DNA of 64,000 nucleotides from Shewanella sp. UCD-KL12. Lineage in GTDB: Bacteria; Pseudomonadota; Gammaproteobacteria; Enterobacterales; Shewanellaceae. A program made the translations under genes and the position numbers. Below the pieces are notes generated by a model. The model was not told where the DNA came from. It did not search any database and worked only from the letters and a program-made list of their open reading frames with translations. Shown in pieces: positions 2,953 to 26,391 of this stretch (its first letter is position 1; every line of letters starts with the position of its first letter). The stretch spans positions 62,001 to 126,000 of the forward strand of contig NZ_MPHJ01000005.1 in the NCBI RefSeq assembly GCF_001957125.1. The letters run 5' to 3'.

Positions 2953-3783
2953 TTACCTAGTGCACATAACCAAGGTATTCATTTCATTATAATGGAGTAA
3001 TTCACGCTGCTCGTTGTCTTTAAAAGGCTTCACAGACAATTTCGTTCTGTGTTTCAAAGTCGAGTATGTATCGAGGAAGCTCCCAGGTCCGACACTAAAC
3101 CTGATAACCCCTTGTTTAAGCAACAATTCAGCGTGTGTTGAAACCGCTAAGTGGTCGCCAGCTAGCATAAAATTCAGTGGCATAATAAGATCGCTACGCA
3201 ACCGCAAAGCGATATCTTCAGCATCTATACCTGGAATAAAGCCACAATCTGCGCCTGCTGCTTGATAACGTTTTAAACGAGACTTAGTTATATCTAGCGC
3301 TCCATCATGAGATACAAGCTCTCGAAGGTATACATCGGTTCTGGCATTGATAAATACCTGTCTACAACATGAAGATGCCCGTATCGCTGTTATTTTATCC
3401 ACCAGCAACTCAGATGATTGTTCTCCATCCTCTATGTTGATACCAACCACGCCTAAACGAACAAGCTCAGCCACTAAAGACACCACCTCTTCGGGTTTAT
3501 CGCTATAGCCATCCTCTATATCCACAGTCACAGGCAACTTGCTCACTCGCATGATATTCGCAACAGCAAACAACAATGCATCAACGGGAAGATCTCCGCC
3601 ATCGGCATAACCTAATGACCAAGCCAGTGATGCACTACTGGTCGCCAATGCCTTGGCTCCTGATGCTTGTACTATCATTGCACTGGCTGCGTCCCAAACA
3701 TTGACCAACACCAAAGGTGAAGTCCCTACGTGCAACTGATGAAAGGTTTCAAGCTGTTCACTAAATTGAGTTTGCTTCTTCAT
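2953..3783 (-). CDS. Isocitrate lyase/PEP mutase family protein
   Basis: A 276-residue protein of the PEP mutase/isocitrate lyase superfamily, a TIM-barrel family that makes or breaks C-C or C-P bonds next to a Mg-bound alpha-oxo acid. Visible family features are NVWDAASA near residue 30, TSSASLAWSLGYADG near 47-61, the Mg-binding strand VTVDIEDGYS, GINIEDGE, and the INARTD strand. The specific catalytic Cys loop of methylisocitrate lyase (KRCGH) is absent, so this belongs to the broad PEP phosphonomutase-like group. Its substrate is unknown. It seems to be a single gene. Confidence 0.8.
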   Translation of the reverse strand: MKKQTQFSEQLETFHQLHVGTSPLVLVNVWDAASAMIVQASGAKALATSSASLAWSLGYADGGDLPVDALLFAVANIMRVSKLPVTVDIEDGYSDKPEEVVSLVAELVRLGVVGINIEDGEQSSELLVDKITAIRASSCCRQVFINARTDVYLRELVSHDGALDITKSRLKRYQAAGADCGFIPGIDAEDIALRLRSDLIMPLNFMLAGDHLAVSTHAELLLKQGVIRFSVGPGSFLDTYSTLKHRTKLSVKPFKDNEQRELLHYNEMNTLVMCTR

Positions 3784-14744: not shown

Positions 14745-15926
14745 ATGAAGTTAGTTTTAAAGCTCGTAGCGGGCATATTCATTGGTATTCTAATGGGCTT
14801 TTTTGCGCCAGATATCATAGTTCGCTGTCTACTTACGATCAAAGCCGTTGTCGGCCAGCTGATCGGGTTCACCATCCCCCTCATTATTCTGTTTTACATC
14901 ACCAGTGGTATCGCAAGCCTACCCAAAAATTCGGGTTCCTTGTTAGGTAAAACTGTTGGCCTAGCTTATGGCTCAACCGTCGTGGCTGGTAGTCTTGCAT
15001 TCCTTGTAGCAAGTTTTGCACTGTCAGGCTTACCATCGGCGCCAGCAGTACCGGCTGATTCAGCCAACCAGTTAACAAGCTTCATCACCTTAGAGGTTCC
15101 TCCTCTGTTTGGTGTTATGACCGCATTAGCCGCAGCCTTCCTATTCGGTTTAGGCATCAGCGTAACTGGCAGTAAAAACTTGAAATCGATAGCCGATGAT
15201 GGTCGCGCGATTATCGATTTACTACTCTCTCGTGTCGTTATCCCGGTATTGCCCTTCTTTATCGCTGGTATTTTTGCCGAAATGGCCGCTGAAGGAACAG
15301 TATTCTCGACACTGAAAACCTTTGGTGTGGTGTTAGCACTTGTCGTGCTTATGCACTGGGTATGGATCACGATTCAATATATTGTAGCGGGCCTAGCTGT
15401 TGGCTTATCACCCATTAAGCTAATTAAAAACATGCTACCTGCCTACTTCACAGCAATTGGTACCATGTCATCGGCAGCGACGATTCCGGTAACGCTACGT
15501 CAGACTAAAGAGAATGGCGTTAAGAGCTCGATCGCCAACTTTACCGTACCACTTTGTGCCACGATCCACCTTTCAGGCTCAACCATCACCTTAGTGACTT
15601 GCGCGACGGCAGTGATGGTGCTCAGCCAAAACTTAGCGCTGCCATCACTACTTGAGATGCTACCGTTTATCATGATGCTAGGTGTAACTATGATTGCAGC
15701 ACCAGGTGCACCTGGTGGCGCGGTAATGGCAGCCCTTGGTCTTATGGCTACTATGTTAGGTTTCGGTGAGGCAGAGCTTGCGCTAATGATAGCCCTATAC
15801 ATGGCACAAGACAGTTTCGGCACCGCCTGTAACATTACCGGTGACGGCGCAATCTCATTGCTAGTAAACAAGCTGGCTAATGAAGAAGTTGGCGCAGAAG
15901 CAAGTATTGCTCAACCAAACGTATAA
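14745..15926 (+). CDS. Dicarboxylate/amino acid:cation symporter (DAACS family)
   Basis: Inner-membrane secondary transporter of 393 residues. The frame is open from 14706, but TGGAGA at 14732-14737 before the ATG at 14745 sets the start. It has about eight membrane segments and the family's serine-rich re-entrant loop TAIGTMSSAATIPVTLR. A second re-entrant region includes MIAAPGAPGGAVMAALG, and the substrate motif has QDSFGTACNITGDG near the end (compare QDxxxTxxNVxGD of GltPh). Expected to import glutamate, dicarboxylates or a related amino acid with Na+ or H+. A strong terminator follows. Confidence 0.9.
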   Translation: MKLVLKLVAGIFIGILMGFFAPDIIVRCLLTIKAVVGQLIGFTIPLIILFYITSGIASLPKNSGSLLGKTVGLAYGSTVVAGSLAFLVASFALSGLPSAPAVPADSANQLTSFITLEVPPLFGVMTALAAAFLFGLGISVTGSKNLKSIADDGRAIIDLLLSRVVIPVLPFFIAGIFAEMAAEGTVFSTLKTFGVVLALVVLMHWVWITIQYIVAGLAVGLSPIKLIKNMLPAYFTAIGTMSSAATIPVTLRQTKENGVKSSIANFTVPLCATIHLSGSTITLVTCATAVMVLSQNLALPSLLEMLPFIMMLGVTMIAAPGAPGGAVMAALGLMATMLGFGEAELALMIALYMAQDSFGTACNITGDGAISLLVNKLANEEVGAEASIAQPNV

Positions 15927-15960
15927 GCGGTTATTATCAAATAACCCTTAAGTAAAAACT

Positions 15961-15986
15961 AAAAAGGCCCTTTATTGGGCCTTTTT
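15961..15986 (+). terminator. Bidirectional Rho-independent terminator
   Basis: AAAAAGGCCC (15961-15970) and GGGCCTTTTT (15977-15986) form a perfect 10-bp stem with a 6-base loop. It lies between the convergent symporter and solute-binding genes and can serve both. Confidence 0.9.
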
Positions 15987-16015
15987 GCTATCTACTCGCG
16001 CTCAATATTCACCGC

Positions 16016-16735
16016 TTACAAGGCGATATTTGCATAACCAGAAGCTAGGTCTAACTCAATGATCCCCTCGGTTTTCATCTGCGTTAGGGCATCATTGATG
16101 GCAGTGCAAAGTGTTTTACCTGAGAGCGAGTCTTGGCATACATAAAACACCTCTAATACATCAAGCGGTGCAGTTAAATCATAATGTATCATCTGTGCAA
16201 ACTTGCTACCTTCTATGGCGGCGACAGTTGATTTGCTATCACCAATAATCGCATCAATATAACCTCGCATTAGCCTTTCAATATTAACATCATCATTTTT
16301 GGTGTAGTCCAAATGGATAGCTGGGTTTTGGGTAATATTTTCACCATAACTGTAGCCAGTGACGGCCCCCACAAGTTTACCTTCTAAATCATTGATGGTC
16401 TTAATATCTGAACCTAGCTTAGTAAACAGCACTATTTTTTTAAGATAAAAAGGCTCCGAGATGATGACACTAGCCTTAGGTAAGTTTTCTAATAATTCAG
16501 GAAAATAGGCCTCTAGCTTATATTGCTTAAAGTCTCGCTGGGTGCGCTTAGTAGGCTGAATAATGAGGTTGGCATCCAGTGATATACGCTGCAACACTTG
16601 GTTATGCATTTTAATAAACAGACCTTGCTGCTTATCTACCACTAATTTTGGAATGTAATAGCTGCCAATCGTGGTGCTAACAGCCGTAGTTGAATACAAA
16701 ACTAACGCTAAAAAAAGGGCAAACAAATATCGCAT
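16016..16735 (-). CDS. Periplasmic solute-binding-like protein
   Basis: A 239-residue exported protein with a signal peptide ending near STTAVST. Its two-lobe layout resembles family 3 binding proteins (ASVIISEPFYLKKIVLFTK, INDLEGKLVGAVTGYSYG, RGYIDAIIGD, and a C-terminal helix ALTQMKTEGIIELDL). It lacks the aromatic/Arg ligand clamp of true amino-acid binders that I can recognise. No transporter genes adjoin it. This is the third such orphan in 10 kb. Likely a periplasmic sensor or scavenging protein; ligand unknown. Confidence 0.7.
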   Translation of the reverse strand: MRYLFALFLALVLYSTTAVSTTIGSYYIPKLVVDKQQGLFIKMHNQVLQRISLDANLIIQPTKRTQRDFKQYKLEAYFPELLENLPKASVIISEPFYLKKIVLFTKLGSDIKTINDLEGKLVGAVTGYSYGENITQNPAIHLDYTKNDDVNIERLMRGYIDAIIGDSKSTVAAIEGSKFAQMIHYDLTAPLDVLEVFYVCQDSLSGKTLCTAINDALTQMKTEGIIELDLASGYANIAL

Positions 16736-16922
16736 TCACAGAGGCCTTTGAAAGTTCTTCGTATTATTTTAAACAAAATTATCGTAGATTAATCATACAG
16801 TGATGACTAATAGGCCTCAACCTTGCCACTAAATCAATGAAATGAACCAATGAAATAAGCCTGGCTTGAGCGGTATAACTCAGGTTAGTTACACTGCTTG
16901 CCGTAAGCATTTGCATAAATTA

Positions 16923-16944
16923 AGGTGAGCCGAACAGCTCACCT
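16923..16944 (-). terminator. Stem-loop downstream of the 17017 lipoprotein gene
   Basis: AGGTGAGC/AGCTCACCT-type perfect 8-bp arms (16923-16930 and 16937-16944) with a 6-base loop. On the minus strand it is followed by TTAATTT. Probable terminator for the gene ending at 17017. Confidence 0.55.
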
Positions 16945-17016
16945 CTTGGGTAGAGTGGACGCGGGTCCGCTGATACAGCACACATCATAGTAACGATAAT
17001 ATTTACTAATCAGTGA

Positions 17017-17529
17017 CTAACAGTCGTAGGCACAAGTGACTTCCGAGCTAGCACTCTTGTCTTTACCATGCTCTAACTGACGCTCCGCATCTTGTACTGA
17101 AATCTTTTGGAAGAACACTTCCATAATAAGCGTCAGCCTCTCCTCAGCATTGCCAAATTTGTCCATGCCACCGTACTGAACAGAGTCAAAATCAAGTGCG
17201 GCAAGTTTGTTTCCTTTGTTGTCTGTCACATCTAAGTTTACATAGCGCATGTAAGTGGCAATATCCCACCACCAGTTAGCATTAAACTCAAACATAACCT
17301 GATCATCTGCTAATTGAGCTGTTGGGCTTGCTGTGGTCTTAGAGACCTTATAACCATTATCGACCATCCAGTTCGTCACAATACTTCTAACTTGCGCCGT
17401 CTGCTTCGAGTCGTTTGTCATGACGATCTCTTTATCGAAATTAGGATCCATCGGCTTTAGCTCAGTTAACCCATTACTTGAACACCCAGTAACGGCAAGC
17501 AAAACTAAACCTAATAATATCTTTTTCAT
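17017..17529 (-). CDS. Lipoprotein of unknown function
   Basis: A 170-residue predicted lipoprotein: MKKILLGLVLLAVTGCSSNG has a textbook lipobox (VTGC). The mature part contains NWMVDNGYKV, a tryptophan run FNANWWWDIATYMRYV, and ends with two cysteines (VTCAYDC). It resembles Shewanella lipoproteins with a compact alpha/beta fold, but I cannot name a function. RBS on the minus strand is GAGAGAG just before the ATG. Monocistronic, with a hairpin downstream. Confidence 0.75.
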   Translation of the reverse strand: MKKILLGLVLLAVTGCSSNGLTELKPMDPNFDKEIVMTNDSKQTAQVRSIVTNWMVDNGYKVSKTTASPTAQLADDQVMFEFNANWWWDIATYMRYVNLDVTDNKGNKLAALDFDSVQYGGMDKFGNAEERLTLIMEVFFQKISVQDAERQLEHGKDKSASSEVTCAYDC

Positions 17530-17719
17530 TTGACTCTCTCTTTGAAATTCCGCTGGATTTTACAACACAAGAGAGACAGGTGTCTAGCCATCAATTTACT
17601 CACTAAACCTAACGACTTATATTCAGGTTTAGTCATGGCAATGGATTTTTATTAGCTAATGGGTAATGTATAAAACGGATAGTCCATTGGCCCTCAATCG
17701 CTCAAGTACTATTTAGCTA

Positions 17720-18670
17720 TCATAAACGCAGCTTACTTTCTCCACAGTCTTTAAACTGACTTTGAATACAGCGCTGACTCAGCCCTTGAGCTTGTTGTAA
17801 TTCACTCTCACTCAGCATAGGTATCAATAACGCCATACGCTCCCGAGCAATTTCGTGACCTTGGGAGTCTGCCGCACTGAGCCAGACATAACATTGCATT
17901 AGATCTGACTCGCCGTTGATACCATTAAACTCAAGTGTTGCAAGATTCACTTGGCTATCGGCACTGCCCATTTCTGCAGCCTTCAGGAACCACAGCCTAG
18001 CTTGCTGTTGATCGGTATGCCCCATCGAACCATCTGAATACATCAAACCCAGTTTATGATTAGCAGGCACATGGCCCAGCTCTGCACTTTTTTGAAACCA
18101 AGAGTGTGCTCGCTGTATGTTGTAGTACTCATCGAAGTTAATCTGTCCAAGCAGATAAGCCGCTTCGCCATGGCCATTATCAACACTGAGTTTAAGCCAA
18201 TGCTCGGCTGCCGATAGATCTTTGCCCCCGCCATTACCTTCAAAATACATCAAACCCAGCATAAACTGAGCATCCTTTTGATATTCATGTTGCTGCTGAG
18301 CAGCCTTCATATACCATTCTCGCGCAAGCTTGGGCTGTCTCGCCCCAGTAAAGCCTGTACGATAGAGCTCAGCCAGAGCATATTCAGCCGTCGGCTCTCC
18401 CATACTCGCTGCCATATGGTACAGCTCCGTTGCACGTTTGGGGTTGGTAGCAATCAACTCCGCTTTAACATAGAGGTAAGCAAGGTTCATTGCTGCATGA
18501 CTATTTCCTTGTTCGGCTTGAGCGATACATGATTGGGAAACCGTATCGACAAGCCCCGCCACAGCATAGTCACAAAAGAGGTCGTTCATCGATGGCTTGG
18601 AGTCTGAGGTGCTACACCCCAGCAGAGGAACAGTTGAAACGAGAGCTACGATGGCAAATAAGGCACGCAT
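17720..18670 (-). CDS. Sel1-repeat (TPR-like) lipoprotein
   Basis: A 316-residue predicted lipoprotein (signal peptide to PLLGCS). From residue 50 on it is built of about six Sel1-like repeats, seen as A..LG.(M/L)Y..G...D...A..W..(K/L)AA..G: AMNLAYLYVKAE, AEYALAELYRTG, AQFMLGLMYFEG, AAYLLGQINFDE, ANHKLGLMYSDG, SQVNLATLEFNG. Such solenoids mediate protein contacts in the periplasm, often in envelope signalling. The C-terminus is free of known domains. Partners unknown. Confidence 0.85.
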   Translation of the reverse strand: MRALFAIVALVSTVPLLGCSTSDSKPSMNDLFCDYAVAGLVDTVSQSCIAQAEQGNSHAAMNLAYLYVKAELIATNPKRATELYHMAASMGEPTAEYALAELYRTGFTGARQPKLAREWYMKAAQQQHEYQKDAQFMLGLMYFEGNGGGKDLSAAEHWLKLSVDNGHGEAAYLLGQINFDEYYNIQRAHSWFQKSAELGHVPANHKLGLMYSDGSMGHTDQQQARLWFLKAAEMGSADSQVNLATLEFNGINGESDLMQCYVWLSAADSQGHEIARERMALLIPMLSESELQQAQGLSQRCIQSQFKDCGESKLRL

Positions 18671-18830
18671 AGAAAAATACCAAAAACATCAGTTTATGGT
18701 GATTTATAGCGACCGCCAAGGCGATAATTAAAATATGAGACTGAAAACATGGAGATAATTGTTACAGGGTTATAGGTTGCATAAGTTGAAATTAAGCCTC
18801 CCATGAAAACCAGTGACTCTTTAAGATCCA

Positions 18831-19223
18831 CTATCCACCGAAGGTAATATCAACTTCATGCTCCTCTTCACTAACTGGTTTTACCGTAAAGAAGATACCT
18901 AGCGGACATTCATCAGCTTTGACTGGAGCGGGAGACAGGAAGCCTTTTTGCCCACCTTTACTCGTCGTCCACACTCGACAAGCGCGTTCACCTTCATCTG
19001 TCATAAAAACAATCTTAGTTGTACCCTGCTCATCTAACTTAGGCCCAACGCTTGTGCTCTCATCCCAATCCTCTCTTAAGGCTTTAATCACACTATGACA
19101 GATCGCTTTAGCATCATATTGGATGTTCGCTTCATGCTCGGTAGTACCGAGTGAAGTCGACGCATGAGCAGCTAATGGGATAAAGCTAAAAATAGACAAG
19201 ATAACCAGAGTAGTTTTCAACAT
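18831..19223 (-). CDS. Small secreted protein of unknown function
   Basis: A 130-residue protein with a clean signal peptide (cleavage after AAHA). The mature protein has three cysteines (AICHSV, ERACRVW, DECPLG), so a disulfide is possible. No family recognised. The acidic C-terminus ends HEVDITFGG. It lies among several other small exported proteins on the same strand but separated by spacers. Confidence 0.65.
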   Translation of the reverse strand: MLKTTLVILSIFSFIPLAAHASTSLGTTEHEANIQYDAKAICHSVIKALREDWDESTSVGPKLDEQGTTKIVFMTDEGERACRVWTTSKGGQKGFLSPAPVKADECPLGIFFTVKPVSEEEHEVDITFGG

Positions 19224-19430
19224 TTGCAGGCCTAAATATAGTGATATTCAGCAATATGACCTAAGGGCTCAAGGTAAGTTCGCTCAGTGGTTAGCGCTTT
19301 TCGTATTGAAGCCATTTATTGTGACGCTGAGCTCATTTTTAAAAAGCGAAGAATAGTCAATAAGGAAGTACAAACATATCAATTTATAATAGTATTCTAT
19401 GAATATAAAGATTTAGTATTAGAATCGCTT

Positions 19431-19462
19431 GGCAGTGTGAACTTTATCAAATACACACTGCC
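19431..19462 (-). terminator. Stem-loop just after the small peptide gene
   Basis: GGCAGTGTG (19431-19439) and CACACTGCC (19454-19462) form a perfect 9-bp stem with a 14-base loop, starting 12 bases after the stop of the 19475-19621 gene. No U-tract follows on the minus strand. Confidence 0.5.
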
Positions 19463-19474
19463 ATCAATATTACT

Positions 19475-19621
19475 CTACCATGTGATATAGAAGCAGAAGC
19501 CCCATAAACACCCTCCAATTGAACCATCTGGATTAACTACGTCATCTGCTGCTAGTGCAAAGTTTGAAAACATAGCACTTGCTGTTAGCATTGCTGTTAA
19601 CCCAATAAGTTTATTTTTCAT
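19475..19621 (-). CDS. 48-residue secreted two-cysteine peptide
   Basis: A short gene with strong start signals: AAAGGAG lies 6 bases before the ATG at 19621. The product has a classical signal peptide (MKNKLIGL...) ending FALA/ADD, which would leave a mature peptide of 24 residues. The mature part starts ADDVVNPDGSIGG and ends in a hydrophobic CLWGFCFYITW with two cysteines spaced CxxxxC and two Trp. A hairpin follows the stop. It is 103 bp downstream of the 20165-19725 gene on the same strand. Size, export signal and amphipathic tail suggest a secreted peptide (bacteriocin-, signal- or membrane-active type), but no function is shown. Confidence 0.7.
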   Translation of the reverse strand: MKNKLIGLTAMLTASAMFSNFALAADDVVNPDGSIGGCLWGFCFYITW

Positions 19622-19724
19622 ATAAAACTCCTTTAATTTACATTAATCGCACTTCATTGTGCACGGTAAGTTATAACCTAAATCATAACTAAACTTTCAA
19701 CTTTATATTAAAATTACACCATAT

Positions 19725-20165
19725 TCATATTAGATTTATATTAACAATATGAAACTCATTTAAATTTAGCACATCCATATATTCTTTCTGTTCATTACAT
19801 GGCTCACAATCAAACATCTTGCTAACAGAAACATTTATTATGTAATAATTGGCAGTGGGATCATCACTCTCTGCTGCAGATAAAACCATCTTTATTAAAG
19901 CTTTTATTTTTGGTATGTCATCATCGTCAATATCTACATCCAAGCTATTTTTATTTATCGACAGCAAAAACTCCACTAGTTCACTGGAGTTTTCACCGGT
20001 TTCAAAATAAACAGGAGAAAGGTCTTTCGATATAATAAAGGTTTGTGGGAAACGATTGGGAAGATCTAAATCCTTCCAGTCTTTAGCTCTTACATCTAAT
20101 TCTACAGCAGAAGATAGTGTCGAAAATGCTATAGTTGCTATCGCAACCAATATTAGTGCTCTCAT
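19725..20165 (-). CDS. Secreted protein of unknown function upstream of the small peptide
   Basis: A 146-residue protein with signal peptide MRALILVAIATIAFSTLSSA. The mature part is acidic, with a DVDIDDDDIPK run near residue 80 and a single CEPC pair (MFDCEPCNEQKEY) that could be a redox or metal motif. No family recognised. Its codon use and surroundings are very AT-rich. It lies directly upstream of the 48-residue peptide on the same strand, so the two may be cotranscribed. Confidence 0.65.
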   Translation of the reverse strand: MRALILVAIATIAFSTLSSAVELDVRAKDWKDLDLPNRFPQTFIISKDLSPVYFETGENSSELVEFLLSINKNSLDVDIDDDDIPKIKALIKMVLSAAESDDPTANYYIINVSVSKMFDCEPCNEQKEYMDVLNLNEFHIVNINLI

Positions 20166-20694
20166 CCGTGAGTCGCCTTTTATTTTATGAGTCGAACATT
20201 ATATATGTTACAGCGAGATTATAAACTGCAAAATAAAATTTTGTCAAACAATAAAAAGCCCAAAACAATTATCCACAATAAATAATTTCATGTAGACCAA
20301 TAAACACCTGAGATTAAATAAAACATAAACTAAACGGCTAGTACATTAGTATGGACCATATAAAACATAATAATAAATCCAACTATACCAAACTATAAAA
20401 GGCAGATAAAAATAAAGACTTATAAACATCCAACTAGAAAGAAAAATTTATATACAAATAACTCATATTATTAGTCATGCGACTCAGGTAGCGCAGCTTA
20501 CATAATATTTTGTATAAAAAAGCCTCAGCCTTCATAGCGAAGTACTGAGGATTTCTGTTAGTGGTTGCTCTTAGTTGTTAGTGTTTGCTCTTAATGAATT
20601 AGGGCGATGACCTCAATGTCAGACACTTTTCTATTAGGTTGTTACTTAGATTCCTAATTCAGTTTCTAAAATAGACTCTTAAATAGCTTAAAAA
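20166..20694. other. 530-bp AT-rich spacer with one terminator and a 20-bp-period repeat
   Basis: Very AT-rich, without convincing genes. It contains a minus-strand terminator (20523-20550), two near-identical 17-mers GTTAGTG(G/T)TTGCTCTTA at 20557-20573 and 20577-20593, and one consensus DnaA box TTATCCACA at 20269-20277, which stands alone. Confidence 0.6.
20523..20550 (-). terminator. Terminator of the DUF2306 gene
   Basis: CCTCAG (20523-20528) pairs with CTGAGG (20545-20550), with an inner TTC/GAA pairing. On the minus strand the stem is followed by CTTTTTTA, a good U-tract. It lies about 145 bases after the stop of the gene ending at 20695. Confidence 0.7.
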
Positions 20695-21570
20695 TTAAAT
20701 CCTTGGTAACCACATTCCCATTGAAGCAGCGAATATCCCGCCAGCCATAGCGAGAGTAAGTACCACTAAACTGAAAGAAAACGCTAACTTAACCTTTGGG
20801 CTTTTACTGTCAGATGCAGCAAAGTACATTTGAGCGACCGCCAGCGGGATCAGGTACTGAGCAAAGCCTAAGAAGCTTAAAAATGGGCCTTCGAATGTTT
20901 TAGGATCAAAGCCTACCGGCGCTTGGTGTACCATCAACCACAACATCAGCCCGATACGGAAAAACCACACCCCTCCCATAGCGATAAACAAGCGTAATGC
21001 CCAACGTCTATGGGTTTTAATATCACGCTTAATCGCATGGTATACCGCAAGACCTGCAAACATCATGATTAAAATAGCGTTTAAACTGATGCTGTACTTA
21101 CCGATTTCGCCGCCTGCAACACCACGGCTCCACACCATAAATAGGCCGCCTAAACTCAATATAAAAGCGGTAAAAATATAGATCCGCCCATTTACGCGGT
21201 GCAACTTAGGCGCATAAGATCTTATCTGAGGAATAAGCTGTAGTGGACCACCAACAAGCACCACTAATGCCAATAAAAGATGCATACCAACAGCGAAGTT
21301 TCCTATGCTGTCGCCTGCAACATAACCGTGTGGCATCACCTTGTTCCATCCTGACAGATCGCCAGAAATTGCAACCCCACCATAAAACATGGCCACATAG
21401 GCTGCGAAAATCCATTGCCCTACAACGGTCACTGCAAACCATAGTTTGGCACTATGGCCCAGCCAGCTCCCGCTTCTAGAATCACTCATTGAATGGCTCA
21501 CCGATTGAGTCGTTACATTCTGACTTTCCCCATCTACCGCTATTGTTTTGATTATTGCAGCTTCACTCAT
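20695..21570 (-). CDS. DUF2306 family membrane protein
   Basis: A 291-residue integral membrane protein. After about 40 polar residues it has seven predicted membrane segments. DUF2306-like motifs are visible: GPLQLIPQIRSYAPKLHR followed by NGRIYIF, and the later IKRDIKTHRRWALRLF with conserved His. The paired HR residues and His-rich loops suggest a haem- or quinone-linked fold, but that is inference. Function unknown. Transcribed alone, with a terminator downstream. Confidence 0.8.
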   Translation of the reverse strand: MSEAAIIKTIAVDGESQNVTTQSVSHSMSDSRSGSWLGHSAKLWFAVTVVGQWIFAAYVAMFYGGVAISGDLSGWNKVMPHGYVAGDSIGNFAVGMHLLLALVVLVGGPLQLIPQIRSYAPKLHRVNGRIYIFTAFILSLGGLFMVWSRGVAGGEIGKYSISLNAILIMMFAGLAVYHAIKRDIKTHRRWALRLFIAMGGVWFFRIGLMLWLMVHQAPVGFDPKTFEGPFLSFLGFAQYLIPLAVAQMYFAASDSKSPKVKLAFSFSLVVLTLAMAGGIFAASMGMWLPRI

Positions 21571-21967
21571 GCCTATCCCCTTGGCTGTCCCTTAAGATTT
21601 ATCGAACGATATTTAACACATCGTTAACAGCAAAAGTTATGCCAAATTCATACTCACACAAAATCAACAAGTTATAGATTTAGTTCTTCTTAAAGTGATG
21701 ATCGTTTTCACTGATAGTTAGTTAATATCACAATTTCTATACAGGGTAAGAGGAGTGGACACAGCCTAAACTGAAGCATTAAGTAGATAGGGAAATTGAG
21801 TGTAAATTGAGTATAAATTGAGGTAGTAGCAGACGTTAAGCCTACTAATTAATTCTATTTACTGAAGGATGTAGGCCTGTCTATGGGGGGCTTTTTATGA
21901 GAGCCTTTTTATGAGAGCCTTTTTATGAGAAACTTCTTCGATATCAAATAATTCAAATGGACCTTGA
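21571..21967. other. 397-bp spacer with short tandem repeats
   Basis: Divergent spacer between the DUF2306 gene and the 21968 gene. It carries three copies of (G)CCTTTTTATGAGA at 21889-21930, with a 14-bp period, about 38 bases before the ATG at 21968. It also has GAGT(G/A)TAAATT repeated twice near 21800-21822. No gene seen. Confidence 0.6.
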
Positions 21968-22384
21968 ATGAAAAACCTCACCATAGCCATACTCGTCATC
22001 GCCATCATATATGGTATTTATGATAATAGTTCTACTAAAGAAACTGTCAGTGACATTATCACCTTGACCCCAGTCGCCGCCGAATTCACCTCAGACCTCT
22101 CAAGATCTTGGTCATACCAAGCTTTAGAGAAGCACATAGATTCAAAACACCTCATTTCAAACGAACAAAACTATCGCAGTATGCTTGAAAAAGCTAAACC
22201 TCTTGGACAGATGGAGCGTTGCAACAAACTACAGATGAACCAGCTCCATAAACAAAAAACGGATGGACCCATTGTCGTGTCGGGCGTATGCCAATTCGAA
22301 TATGGAACCGCCTCCCTCATGCTGGTTTTTTCTCATAAAATTGAGGAGTTTGAAATAATAGCTTGGTCAATTAAGTCAGCCTAG
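21968..22384 (+). CDS. Small membrane-anchored or secreted protein of unknown function
   Basis: A 138-residue protein with an N-terminal hydrophobic segment (MKNLTIAILVIAIIYGIY) that can act as an anchor or uncleaved signal. The rest, facing the periplasm, contains two cysteines (MERCNKLQ and VSGVCQFEYG) that could form a disulfide. No family recognised. The ribosome site is weak (GGACC at 21959-21963). The 3' neighbour is a long spacer. Confidence 0.6.
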   Translation: MKNLTIAILVIAIIYGIYDNSSTKETVSDIITLTPVAAEFTSDLSRSWSYQALEKHIDSKHLISNEQNYRSMLEKAKPLGQMERCNKLQMNQLHKQKTDGPIVVSGVCQFEYGTASLMLVFSHKIEEFEIIAWSIKSA

Positions 22385-22844
22385 TTTTCACACTTTTCTT
22401 GTAGATATTATGAGTCCAATGATTATCAAGCTCTAGCTCTCCCTTCGCTTGAGAGCTAGCACAGTAGAATGGATGCGATTGATAGATGATTCTTAAAACT
22501 AAGCAGCGACAAAGCATCAAGTGCTAGTCATCAAAGACTAAAAGTTCGCTTTTAATGAAAGCTAACTCTGCCAACTTCATTTGCTTGCTAAAGAAAAGAT
22601 AAGCTACGAACATTGCGTAAAATCAAACAATTACACCCCAATGTATGGCAAGTTTGACTCTCTTCTAGGAATTAGTACGTGAAATGCAACATATGCACAA
22701 AGAACACGCCGATGAAGCAGGGCTGCCACCGTCTCAAAACAAAGAGCAAAAGCAAGAATACTAAGGTGCAGAAGCGCAGAGAGGCCTATACGTTGAACTG
22801 CCAAGATTGTGGTTGAAGCCAACAGACAGTCTAAGGAGTAAAAC
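22385..22844. other. 460-bp spacer with a possible 34-codon ORF
   Basis: Mostly non-coding. At 22712-22816 (+) a 34-codon frame MKQGCHRLKTKSKSK... ends LNCQDCG and is very basic with a C..CxxC arrangement. It has no good ribosome site, so I leave it as a possibility or a gene remnant. A second overlapping frame at 22669-22764 ends in QNKEQKQEY. Confidence 0.4.
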
Positions 22845-23462
22845 TTGAAAAGCATGGAAAGAGGCAAGATTGTTCGTTGGAACGATGAAAAAGGCTTTGG
22901 CTTTATTAAACCAGAAACGGCTAACGGCAAAGATGTGTTTATTCATATCTCAATATTAAAGCAGATGGTAAGAAAGCCTGTCGTTGGTGACCAAGTTAAC
23001 TATTTCTCAGAATTGCAGAGCGATGGCAAGAGTAAAGCTATCAAAGCCAATATTGAGGGTGTTGCTGTTATCGCATCAACCTCTAAACGGGATGCAACCA
23101 CTAATCATAATAAGAAGAGTCACAACAGACACAGTCGCCAATCCAAATCATCCAGTGTCATGCTTATACCGCTACTTGTCATTCTTGTACTAGGTATCTT
23201 CGGCTTTCAAAGATTCGAAGCGCTAACAGCACAATCAAACACACAAGTGGAAATCAGTAACGAGCCTCCCCTGCAGCAACTAGCTGCAGAACCAATAAAG
23301 TGGGAGCAGCCCAATGAGACATTTCGCTGTGAAGCCGGGAAGCAACACTGCAGCCAAATGCGCTCATGCGCCGAAGCAAAGTACTACCAGAGAAACTGCC
23401 CCGGCACCAAAATGGATGGCGATAGCGACGGCATCCCATGTGAAAGGCAATGGTGTAATTAA
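22845..23462 (+). CDS. Cold-shock domain / TM / excalibur fusion protein
   Basis: A 205-residue three-part protein. Residues 1-70 are a cold-shock OB-fold with RNP-type motifs (GKIVRWNDEKGFGFIKP, DVFIHIS). A basic His/Ser/Lys linker follows, then one membrane helix (about 105-122, MLIPLLVILVLGIFGF). The C-terminus is an excalibur Ca-binding domain: FRCEAGKQHCSQMRSCAEAK and DGDSDGIPCERQWC with the DxDxDG loop. This would put the nucleic-acid-binding domain in the cytoplasm and the Ca-binding domain in the periplasm. Start is TTG at 22845, with AAGGAG at 22833-22838. Function of the combination unknown. Confidence 0.85.
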   Translation: MKSMERGKIVRWNDEKGFGFIKPETANGKDVFIHISILKQMVRKPVVGDQVNYFSELQSDGKSKAIKANIEGVAVIASTSKRDATTNHNKKSHNRHSRQSKSSSVMLIPLLVILVLGIFGFQRFEALTAQSNTQVEISNEPPLQQLAAEPIKWEQPNETFRCEAGKQHCSQMRSCAEAKYYQRNCPGTKMDGDSDGIPCERQWCN

Positions 23463-23473
23463 TATTAAAAAGG

Positions 23474-23497
23474 GTCGGAGTAAAAGTTTACTCTGAC
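23474..23497 (+). terminator. Hairpin after the cold-shock/excalibur gene
   Basis: GTCGGAGTAAA (23474-23484) pairs with TTTACTCTGAC (23487-23497), allowing one G-U pair, 12 bases after the stop. It is followed by GCCATTTATT. Probable terminator or a member of a dispersed repeat: a related GATCAGAGTAAATTT string is at 24199. Confidence 0.45.
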
Positions 23498-23538
23498 GCC
23501 ATTTATTACTCGGCTTTACGACATTAAAGGAACTAAGA

Positions 23539-24183
23539 ATGACTGCTAAACCCATAAAACTTTTCATTTCTGTATTTTTTTCACTTCTAACGACTTCATG
23601 CGTGTTTACAGAAGCCTTATGGCGAGAGTCTAGCTATGATGAGTCATTCGCTAGTTTTTTAATTAGTGAAGATAACAAGAACCTAGTCATCATCGGAGAG
23701 AAGTACCACTACGTTATCAAGCCGTCAGAAACGCTCGTCAACATTTTAAAATCAAGCTATAAACCGAACATCCAAGGTCACTTTGATTATTTTAAAGTAG
23801 AGGCTAATGACAATATCAAGGGGACATATTCCCTCACCTTTAATGCTATCCCCTCAGAAGCAACTAAAGAGTGGCTTAATGCCAATGATTTTAAGGTAAA
23901 AGAGCATAAAAAACTTGGTGATAAATTTGTTTTTCAAGGCAATATTTCAGGAGTAAGGTACCTTCCAAGTGAATCCGTCAATAATACCTTTAGTTTCAAT
24001 AAAGCCTACTCGGTCAGTATTTATGAAGAAATATCTACTGCAGGACAAGCATATAGAACGGCACTATCACCTATATCTGTAGCACTAGATGGCACTTTAG
24101 CCATCGGTGGGATGGCTTTATTCATTACGGCTTGCACTGGGAAAAGAGTCACAACAGGGAAAGGCGCCGATAATATCTGTTAA
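23539..24183 (+). CDS. Lipoprotein of unknown function
   Basis: A 214-residue predicted lipoprotein: the signal peptide ends LLTTSCVF. The first 150 mature residues look like a beta-rich domain (NLVIIGEKYHYVIKP, GTYSLTFNAIPSEATKEWLN, GDKFVFQGNISG). A hydrophobic stretch near residues 182-199 (ALDGTLAIGGMALFITACTG) could insert in the membrane. AAAGGAA at 23526-23532 supports the ATG. No family recognised. It stands alone between the excalibur gene and the groEL terminators. Confidence 0.65.
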   Translation: MTAKPIKLFISVFFSLLTTSCVFTEALWRESSYDESFASFLISEDNKNLVIIGEKYHYVIKPSETLVNILKSSYKPNIQGHFDYFKVEANDNIKGTYSLTFNAIPSEATKEWLNANDFKVKEHKKLGDKFVFQGNISGVRYLPSESVNNTFSFNKAYSVSIYEEISTAGQAYRTALSPISVALDGTLAIGGMALFITACTGKRVTTGKGADNIC

Positions 24184-24222
24184 AGATATAATAAATGGGA
24201 TCAGAGTAAATTTAACTAAAAG

Positions 24223-24258
24223 CTAGATTCCGGCTAAGAGCATCACCGGAATGACGGT
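24223..24258. repeat. Palindromic dispersed element, copy A
   Basis: CTAGATTCCGG followed 13 bases later by CCGGAATGACGGT: ATTCCGG and CCGGAAT are inverted. A second copy is at 24445-24481. Confidence 0.7.
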
Positions 24259-24264
24259 AAAGAA

Positions 24265-24296
24265 AAAGCCCCGATACCGTAAGGTATCGAGGCTTT
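24265..24296 (-). terminator. Terminator hairpin, distal copy
   Basis: AAAGCC-C-CGATACC (24265-24278) pairs with GGTATCG-A-GGCTTT (24283-24296), loop GTAA. On the minus strand it is followed by TTCTTT. It probably backs up the groEL terminator and may also stop the plus-strand lipoprotein transcript. Confidence 0.75.
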
Positions 24297-24444
24297 AAAT
24301 CTTTTAGGGTTTAAGCTTCTAGGCTAAGACCAGCAAAAGTAACTAACGCAGGAAAAATCGATTTAGAGCAAGGCTTCTTGCCACGACGTTTAGCTTCTTA
24401 AACGGATATGATAAAGGGAACAGAGCCCATTAGCAGAAAAGCCA

Positions 24445-24481
24445 CTAGATTCCGGCCCACAAGCATTGCCGGAATGACGGT
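24445..24481. repeat. Palindromic dispersed element, copy B
   Basis: CTAGATTCCGG followed by GCCGGAATGACGGT, the same element as at 24223-24258, with a different 13-base centre. Confidence 0.7.
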
Positions 24482-24537
24482 GTTCACAACATTGCACTAG
24501 CACCTATTTAGTTAGCACCTCTTCAAACTCCAGACAT

Positions 24538-24565
24538 AAAAAAACCGATACTCTAAAAGTATCGG
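24538..24565 (-). terminator. Terminator hairpin of groESL, proximal copy
   Basis: CCGATACT (24545-24552) and AGTATCGG (24558-24565) form an 8-bp stem. On the minus strand seven T follow, a typical Rho-independent terminator. Confidence 0.85.
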
Positions 24566-24717
24566 CTTTCATCTTTAGTTCTAAGCTTTTGAGCTATAGA
24601 CCAACAGACGTTTTTGCGCAGGATAGATTGATTATGACAAGGCGCCTTGAGCGACGCGTAGTCTTTCTTACGCGAGCGAATGGCAACGCAGTAAGAATCA
24701 ATTTAGACCAGCAAAAA

Positions 24718-26391
<1,674 letters not shown>

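Follow-up and report, generated by a model that had tools for sequence, protein, structure and literature searches.

A secreted gene pair in Shewanella sp. UCD-KL12 encoding a predicted disulfide-ring peptide and a putative circularly permuted thioredoxin

Organization of the locus

The window analyzed here is a stretch of 64,000 nucleotides from Shewanella sp. UCD-KL12 (contig NZ_MPHJ01000005.1, positions 62,001 to 126,000 of the forward strand), and positions are counted from its first letter. On its reverse strand it carries a pair of small genes, one encoding a secreted protein with a CEPC motif (the companion) and the other, downstream of it, encoding a short secreted peptide with two cysteines. 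An earlier note, made from the sequence alone, had singled out this pair as a candidate peptide system. Our analysis favors that idea and suggests that the companion is a circularly permuted thioredoxin. The features at the locus are as follows.

20165..19725, (-) strand: companion gene, an open reading frame (ORF) of 146 aa, secreted, with CEPC; predicted circularly permuted thioredoxin (P40 as the cis-proline equivalent; C120-x-x-C123)
19621..19475, (-) strand: peptide gene, encoding a 48-aa pre-peptide; residues 1-24 are a signal peptide by rule, leaving a mature part of 24 residues
20247..20218, (-) strand: candidate promoter of the sigma-70 type, with 12/12 consensus bases (TTGACA, 18 nt, TATAAT); a consensus match only
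19430..19463, (-) strand: hairpin 3' of the peptide gene, the probable end of the transcription unit; without a T-run

The companion gene lies upstream in the direction of transcription, and 103 nt separate the two ORFs. The arrangement described in the earlier note was borne out: the two ORFs follow one another on the same strand, the 48-codon gene has an AGGAG ribosome site 6 nt ahead of its ATG, and the pair sits in an AT-rich island with a G+C content of 28 to 35% in 300-base windows across 19200-20700, compared with 34 to 52% in the rest of 15000-25000. The hairpin placed at the end of this island does form a stable fold (-21 kcal/mol, z -4.2), but it is not followed by a T-run and a terminator scan of the region listed no entry. 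An Rfam scan gave no match at the gathering score. The sigma-70-like site, which was absent from the earlier note, is located 52 nt ahead of the companion ATG. Promoter-like sites in the region number 12, against 8.1 (standard deviation, 3.4) in shuffled sequence, a total not above that of the shuffles, and the best sites ahead of the companion genes of S. kaireitica and S. abyssi reach only 9/12, so that the 12/12 level is not conserved.

The peptide gene and its conservation in Shewanella

The product of the peptide gene begins with basic residues, continues with a hydrophobic stretch, and has a cleavage site of the form FALA/ADD, assigned by eye with the AxA rule. This yields the 24/24 split into signal peptide and mature part that had been predicted. 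The mature peptide contains two cysteines enclosing a hydrophobic six-residue ring, C-LWGF-C, which runs on into the tail WGFCFYITW. When the peptide was searched against 145 relatives (E <= 0.1), matches were returned from its own genome, S. kaireitica DSM 17170 (G054), S. abyssi DSM 17171 (G021), and two others, G108 and G134, which were set aside as lying in frames of 295 and 128 aa. Both genes of the pair are present in S. kaireitica, where the companion is 48% identical and the peptide is 38 aa long, ends in GQIGGCFWGFCFFISW, and has the ring CFWGFC (L005:1498-1614). The two peptides share the core IGGC[LF]WGFCF[YF]I[TS]W. Within the final 15 sense codons, five changes are synonymous and four alter the amino acid, three of the latter conservatively (L/F, Y/F, and T/S). 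The recurrence of the frame, start, signal peptide, and core in S. kaireitica confirms, at the level of sequence, that the peptide gene is more than a chance reading frame. The ring CFWGFC also resembles the CFWKYC ring of vertebrate urotensin II as given in an excerpt of PMC4406059; the lysine is absent, and the likeness is most likely a coincidence.

The companion of S. abyssi is intact and 59% identical to that of the window, and inspection by eye revealed a peptide remnant with no start codon, a stop ahead of the core, and loss of the core itself. The earlier note would have abandoned the proposal had the frame or signal peptide lacked conservation in relatives; both are conserved in S. 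kaireitica, but only a decayed remnant is left in S. abyssi. A profile of the companion matched 3 of 129 Shewanella genomes, and the neighborhoods of these three companions all differ. In another Shewanella genome (G062), the counterparts of the two genes that flank the pair are separated by about 4 kb carrying other genes (L103:7721-11660). The interval between the flanking genes is a variable site, and the comparison with this sister genome gave no clean empty site. Given the patchy presence, the differing neighborhoods, and the other genes in the G062 interval, the pair may be a cassette that has been gained and lost within Shewanella.

The core of the peptide, searched as a DNA pattern, occurred in only 1 of 369 genomes of the class, the window's own. 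In viral contigs the same pattern gave 16 stretches, which by eye were short frames or unrelated long proteins, and no relative of the peptide or companion was recovered there. Plasmids held no relative of the companion, the peptide, or the G774 companion of L060, and phages held none of the companion. A match of the peptide to PF11410 (E 0.1), matches of the companion to phrog_25894 (E 0.12) and to a PADLOC model (E 0.009), and weak PDB sequence matches (best E 0.004, an acetyltransferase) were all judged to be due to chance. Neither CFWGFC nor CLWGFC was found in the open-licence literature.

The companion as a putative circularly permuted thioredoxin

The companion of the window matches no Pfam or NCBIfam family at E <= 10, and its relatives were recovered with profiles. 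A profile built from the three companions of Shewanella reached homologs in other genera of the order. At E <= 0.1 it matched 21 genomes, among which the window's own, G774, and G098 were kept; G679 was rejected after inspection, and the remainder were partial matches, longer frames, or frames with stops. An enlarged profile found members in 9 of 246 genomes (11 matches) belonging to the family of one homolog-bearing genome. A further search found members in 8 of 325 genomes of the order, including the window's own and G004; this count is what is left of 12 matching genomes after the removal of G043 (a TlpA-like protein), G768 (cytochrome-like by eye at the one of its two places that was inspected), and G557 and G785 (stops in frame). 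Matches in G226, covering only companion residues 39-89, and in G002, covering residues 50-112 within a 570-aa frame, were also set aside. The resulting companion alignment contains 18 sequences from 17 loci, 3 from Shewanella and 15 from other genera, with two contributed by G871. Its only strictly invariant columns are P40, C120, and C123, which lie in the motifs P-[QAVR] and C-x-x-C. At the G871 locus the two companions are very similar and flank a single peptide gene (L074:8033-9433).

In thioredoxins the CxxC motif comes first and the cis-proline comes later. The order is reversed in all 18 companions, with the proline half first and the CxxC half last. Judged from sequence, the companion would fit a thioredoxin-like fold solely as a circular permutation, and the classical order does not occur. 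Three lines of evidence agree on this reading: crossed Pfam matches, a comparison of profiles with their halves swapped, and an AlphaFold model. The L071 protein, taken unaltered, shows the crossed pattern. Its residues 39-74 align with the C-terminal ends of two profiles, Thioredoxin_2 (positions 70-104 of 104; E 2.5e-5) and Redoxin (110-148 of 148; E 5.7e-4), and its residues 94-142 align with the N-terminal half of Thioredoxin (6-57 of 103; E 0.07). Residues 100-146 of the L086 protein likewise match the N-terminal halves of three thioredoxin profiles, weakly (E 0.08 to 0.13).

For the profile comparison, the companion alignment was scored with HHalign against 10 of the 11 loci of the thioredoxin family in the window's genome; a filter excluded the remaining one. 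With its halves swapped, the companion profile scored 38.8 over 82 columns, compared with 28.6 unpermuted, and the alignment placed CxxC on CxxC and P40 on the cis-proline. The C-terminal half alone scored 25.9 and the N-terminal half alone 16.7. When the C-terminal half was joined to a column-shuffled N-terminal half, none of 200 trials reached 38.8 (maximum, 33.6; mean, 28.2), and whole-column shuffles gave at most 16.5 in 100 trials. The contribution of the N-terminal half thus shows in the joined alignment. The permuted profile built without the Shewanella rows scored 41.6 over 90 columns. The AlphaFold model made from the 18-row alignment is confident (predicted local distance difference test [pLDDT], 80.7; predicted template modeling score [pTM], 0.75); with three sequences only, the pLDDT is 37. 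The model has a short strand (21-25) followed by helix-strand(P)-strand-helix and then helix-strand-CxxC helix-strand, with an extra helix (84-98) between the two halves. The predicted helix 121-133 begins at the CxxC, as would be expected of an active-site helix. The cis geometry of P40 is a prediction from the alignment.

Several results weigh against this reading. Pfam found no thioredoxin match in 16 of the 18 companions, and none of the matches that were found reaches the curated cutoff. The N-terminal half by itself (16.7) does no better than the best whole-profile shuffle and is not significant. Single companion sequences with their halves swapped gave no thioredoxin match in Pfam; the relation is visible only with the deeper family. 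Structural comparison of the companion model with the PDB gave no match with Foldseek at E <= 0.001 and none with VIA at Z >= 5. The best VIA row was to UGGT (6trf_A; Z 4.7, 97 residues, root mean square deviation 3.6), a protein with thioredoxin-like domains, and it proves nothing by itself. Sequential aligners would, however, be expected to miss a permutation. The wider profile also drew in a Shewanella protein, from G004, that has no CxxC. Taken together, the companion looks like a circularly permuted thioredoxin, a reading supported by sequence profiles and by the predicted model. The earlier note had left the companion as an immunity, processing, or carrier protein; on account of this resemblance the processing role is favored, and immunity is kept as a rival.

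The G004 protein (L097:6445-6918) keeps the FPALYIYD strand and is possibly a non-redox variant. A secreted glycine-rich CC peptide (L097:6973-7125) and a divergent MacAB-like operon adjoin it.

An exporter and small cysteine peptides beside the companions

The neighborhoods of 18 loci were examined, 17 with CxxC companions (G871 having two) and that of G004. By tblastn, an ATPase of the MacB class adjoins the companion in 14 of the 18, G004 included. All 14 of these exporter loci have an ORF of adaptor size, 12 of them matched by tblastn, and 13 have an ORF of permease size, most assigned by size and position; the remaining permease would fall off the fetched piece. As far as sequence can tell, the loci of the relatives therefore cluster a membrane fusion protein (MFP) adaptor, a MacB-class ATPase, and a MacB_PCD/FtsX permease. 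Pfam found MacB_PCD or FtsX in 4 of the 5 permeases tested. Against NCBIfam, the ATPase of one relative had DarD as its best model (E 3.9e-67), with LolD nearly level (6.2e-67), and its DarD score was 225.9 of 375 bits, far below the curated cutoff. All four permeases compared matched ADOP and two matched DarB, in every case below the cutoff, and in both adaptors tested RND_mfp was the best match and DarC a weaker one. G871 has a second adaptor-ATPase-permease cluster within 2 kb (L074:11028-15541).

Small peptides with cysteines recur at the same loci. Our rule for such a peptide (33 to 85 codons, a signal-like start, and at least two cysteines in the mature part) was set after several of them had been seen. 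A peptide fitting the rule lay beside the cluster and on its strand at 11 of the 18 loci, compared with 8 of 104 control gaps (Fisher p 1e-6); the controls were the other gaps of the same DNA, read on both strands, and the loci include two close relatives, L079 and L080. The 17 CxxC loci divide into 10 with an intact peptide gene, 5 with a broken or split one, 1 without a clear start (G885), and 1 in which none was seen (G608). In 9 of the 10 intact mature peptides, cut by eye, the cysteines include a C-X4-C spacing (e.g., CLWGFC, CFWGFC, CDSSGC, and CNSTHC). Five of the 10 carry four to six cysteines, and the sequences vary widely across loci. In two of the C-X4-C peptides the ring stands between runs of Ile, Val, and Leu, which would be compatible with a disulfide-closed hairpin. 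In G881, two similar frame starts (EIKCYLQVAFV) stand in tandem before the peptide (L079:3148-3249 and 3437-3727), an arrangement resembling a duplication of the 5' part.

The start and the signal peptide are in different frames in three of the split genes (G946, G665, and G693), near A6, A9, and C8 runs; in these three genes (L075:3255-3420, L076:7944-8110, and L095:4228-4430) the ribosome site and ATG share one frame. Such frame-split genes may reflect phase variation, decay, or assembly error. At L077:8195-8520, the peptide gene is interrupted by an in-frame TAA directly after the signal peptide, beyond which a two-cysteine frame continues, with companion and exporter intact.

The conservation of the pair in S. 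kaireitica and its recurrence in other genera support the two-gene peptide system that had been proposed for the window, and the pair is more likely such a system than two unrelated secreted genes.

Proposed mechanism and alternative explanations

We propose that the peptide is exported by Sec and closed into a disulfide ring, that its own permuted thioredoxin oxidizes it, and that a pump of the MacAB type expels it; we would put the probability of this scheme at roughly 0.5. Judging by their signal peptides, both products would be exported by Sec. In the periplasm the companion, with its CxPC motif, would form or correct the disulfide closing the six-residue ring C-LWGF-C. In most relatives, a MacA-like adaptor, a MacB/LolD/DarD-like ATPase, and a large permease, all encoded nearby, could then eject the folded peptide via a TolC-type duct. 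Disulfide closure and ejection through a pump have precedents: the STII route, which runs through Sec, Dsb, and MacAB-TolC (part of PMC5985334), and PedC, the CxxC thioredoxin-like accessory of pediocin (part of PMC4919988). The hydrophobic, non-cationic ring and tail would best suit a bacteriocin or microcin-like peptide acting on the membrane or envelope.

Several results count against this proposal. No exporter was found at the three Shewanella companion loci or at one of the two G774 loci (64, 19, 9, and 14 kb, respectively), and within the 64 kb of the window tblastn gave no exporter match at 1e-3 or 1e-4. In S. abyssi the companion lies 0.5 kb from a contig end. The window's genome has eight MacB_PCD matches elsewhere, and the Shewanella pairs would presumably use a chromosomal MacAB-type pump in trans. 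In addition, the mature Shewanella peptides are not cationic, which argues against an ordinary cationic antimicrobial peptide.

The leading alternative, which we consider less likely, is that the companion protects the cell instead of maturing the peptide, binding or reducing incoming peptide in the periplasm for a MacAB-like pump to expel; the three components would then make up a bacteriocin with its immunity functions. At 5 of the 17 loci with a CxxC companion, 4 of which have an exporter, a broken or split peptide gene stands beside an intact companion: the S. abyssi remnant, G862, which has a stop in frame, and the frame-split G946, G665, and G693. This pattern fits retention for protection better than pure maturation. 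The two companions beside one peptide in G871 point the same way. However, the strict invariance of the CxxC and the proline would suggest redox catalysis, the split frames may stem from phase variation or from faulty assembly, and the decay in S. abyssi may be recent. It is improbable that the cyclic peptide is a secreted pheromone matured and released by the companion and exporter. The small size and ring of the peptide, together with a promoter-like site and a terminal hairpin of its own, would agree with this, but among the neighbors listed no gene for a regulator or receptor was seen by eye to recur, and the peptide sequences vary widely, as those of bacteriocins do. Least probable of all is a housekeeping redox or metal-binding peptide of the periplasm that scavenges oxidants, copper, or zinc and is reduced by the companion. 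The four to six cysteines of half the intact peptides would speak for this reading, but the Shewanella peptide has only two, in a hydrophobic ring, the exporter linkage points outward, and the distribution is patchy (3 of 129 Shewanella genomes).

Returning to the oxidized and expelled ring peptide, we suggest, tentatively and with considerable doubt, a broader picture: an undescribed, patchily spread class of Gram-negative C-X4-C disulfide-ring peptide antibiotics, each with its own permuted thioredoxin and a private MacAB-type pump. The Shewanella form would be a stripped, mobile two-gene cassette, some relatives might switch the peptide via homopolymer runs near its start, and in some the product could be a disulfide-locked beta-hairpin acting on the envelope. 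If this is true, a permuted thioredoxin beside a MacAB-like operon would offer a profile handle on short secreted peptides overlooked by family libraries. The companion would moreover be a naturally occurring circular permutation, with a functional link, of an enzyme fold that has been studied in great depth, and the system would test in Gram-negative bacteria the dependence of secreted peptides on disulfide machinery plus a pump that is known from pediocin and STII.

Comparison with known systems

Permuted thioredoxin-like folds are already known in general terms, and so are bacteriocin disulfide helpers, to judge from partial texts; an excerpt of PMC3091736 notes that thioredoxin-like folds include circular permutations. 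The phrase "permuted thioredoxin" was not found in the open-licence literature, nor was the combination of a cysteine peptide, a permuted thioredoxin, and a MacAB-type exporter met there.

Compared by description only, pediocin PA-1 with PedC (like BlpGst and BdbA, from Gram-positive class II systems) shares with the present loci a small cysteine peptide, a dedicated secreted CxxC thioredoxin-like protein, and an ABC transporter (PMC4919988, in part). The present systems differ in being Gram-negative, in using a Sec-type signal and not a leader excised by the ABC transporter, in having the thioredoxin halves swapped, and in the MacAB/Dar-type pump of the relatives. E. coli STII, likewise compared by description only, shares export by Sec, periplasmic disulfide formation, and ejection by a MacB-type pump (PMC5985334, in part); it uses Dsb and MacAB-TolC, whereas the present loci have an oxidoreductase-like protein of their own and, in the relatives, a pump encoded next to it. 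The ATPase, adaptors, and permeases of the relatives match the darobactin exporter DarB/DarC/DarD, all far below curated cutoffs. Unlike darobactin, the peptide here carries a Sec-type signal peptide, and no radical SAM maturase was noticed among the translated neighbors, for which no profile search aimed at radical SAM was made. With the thioredoxin/TlpA family the companion shares a CxxC and a proline that come into register once the halves are swapped, and it differs from that family in its reversed order and in the further helix (84-98) between the halves.
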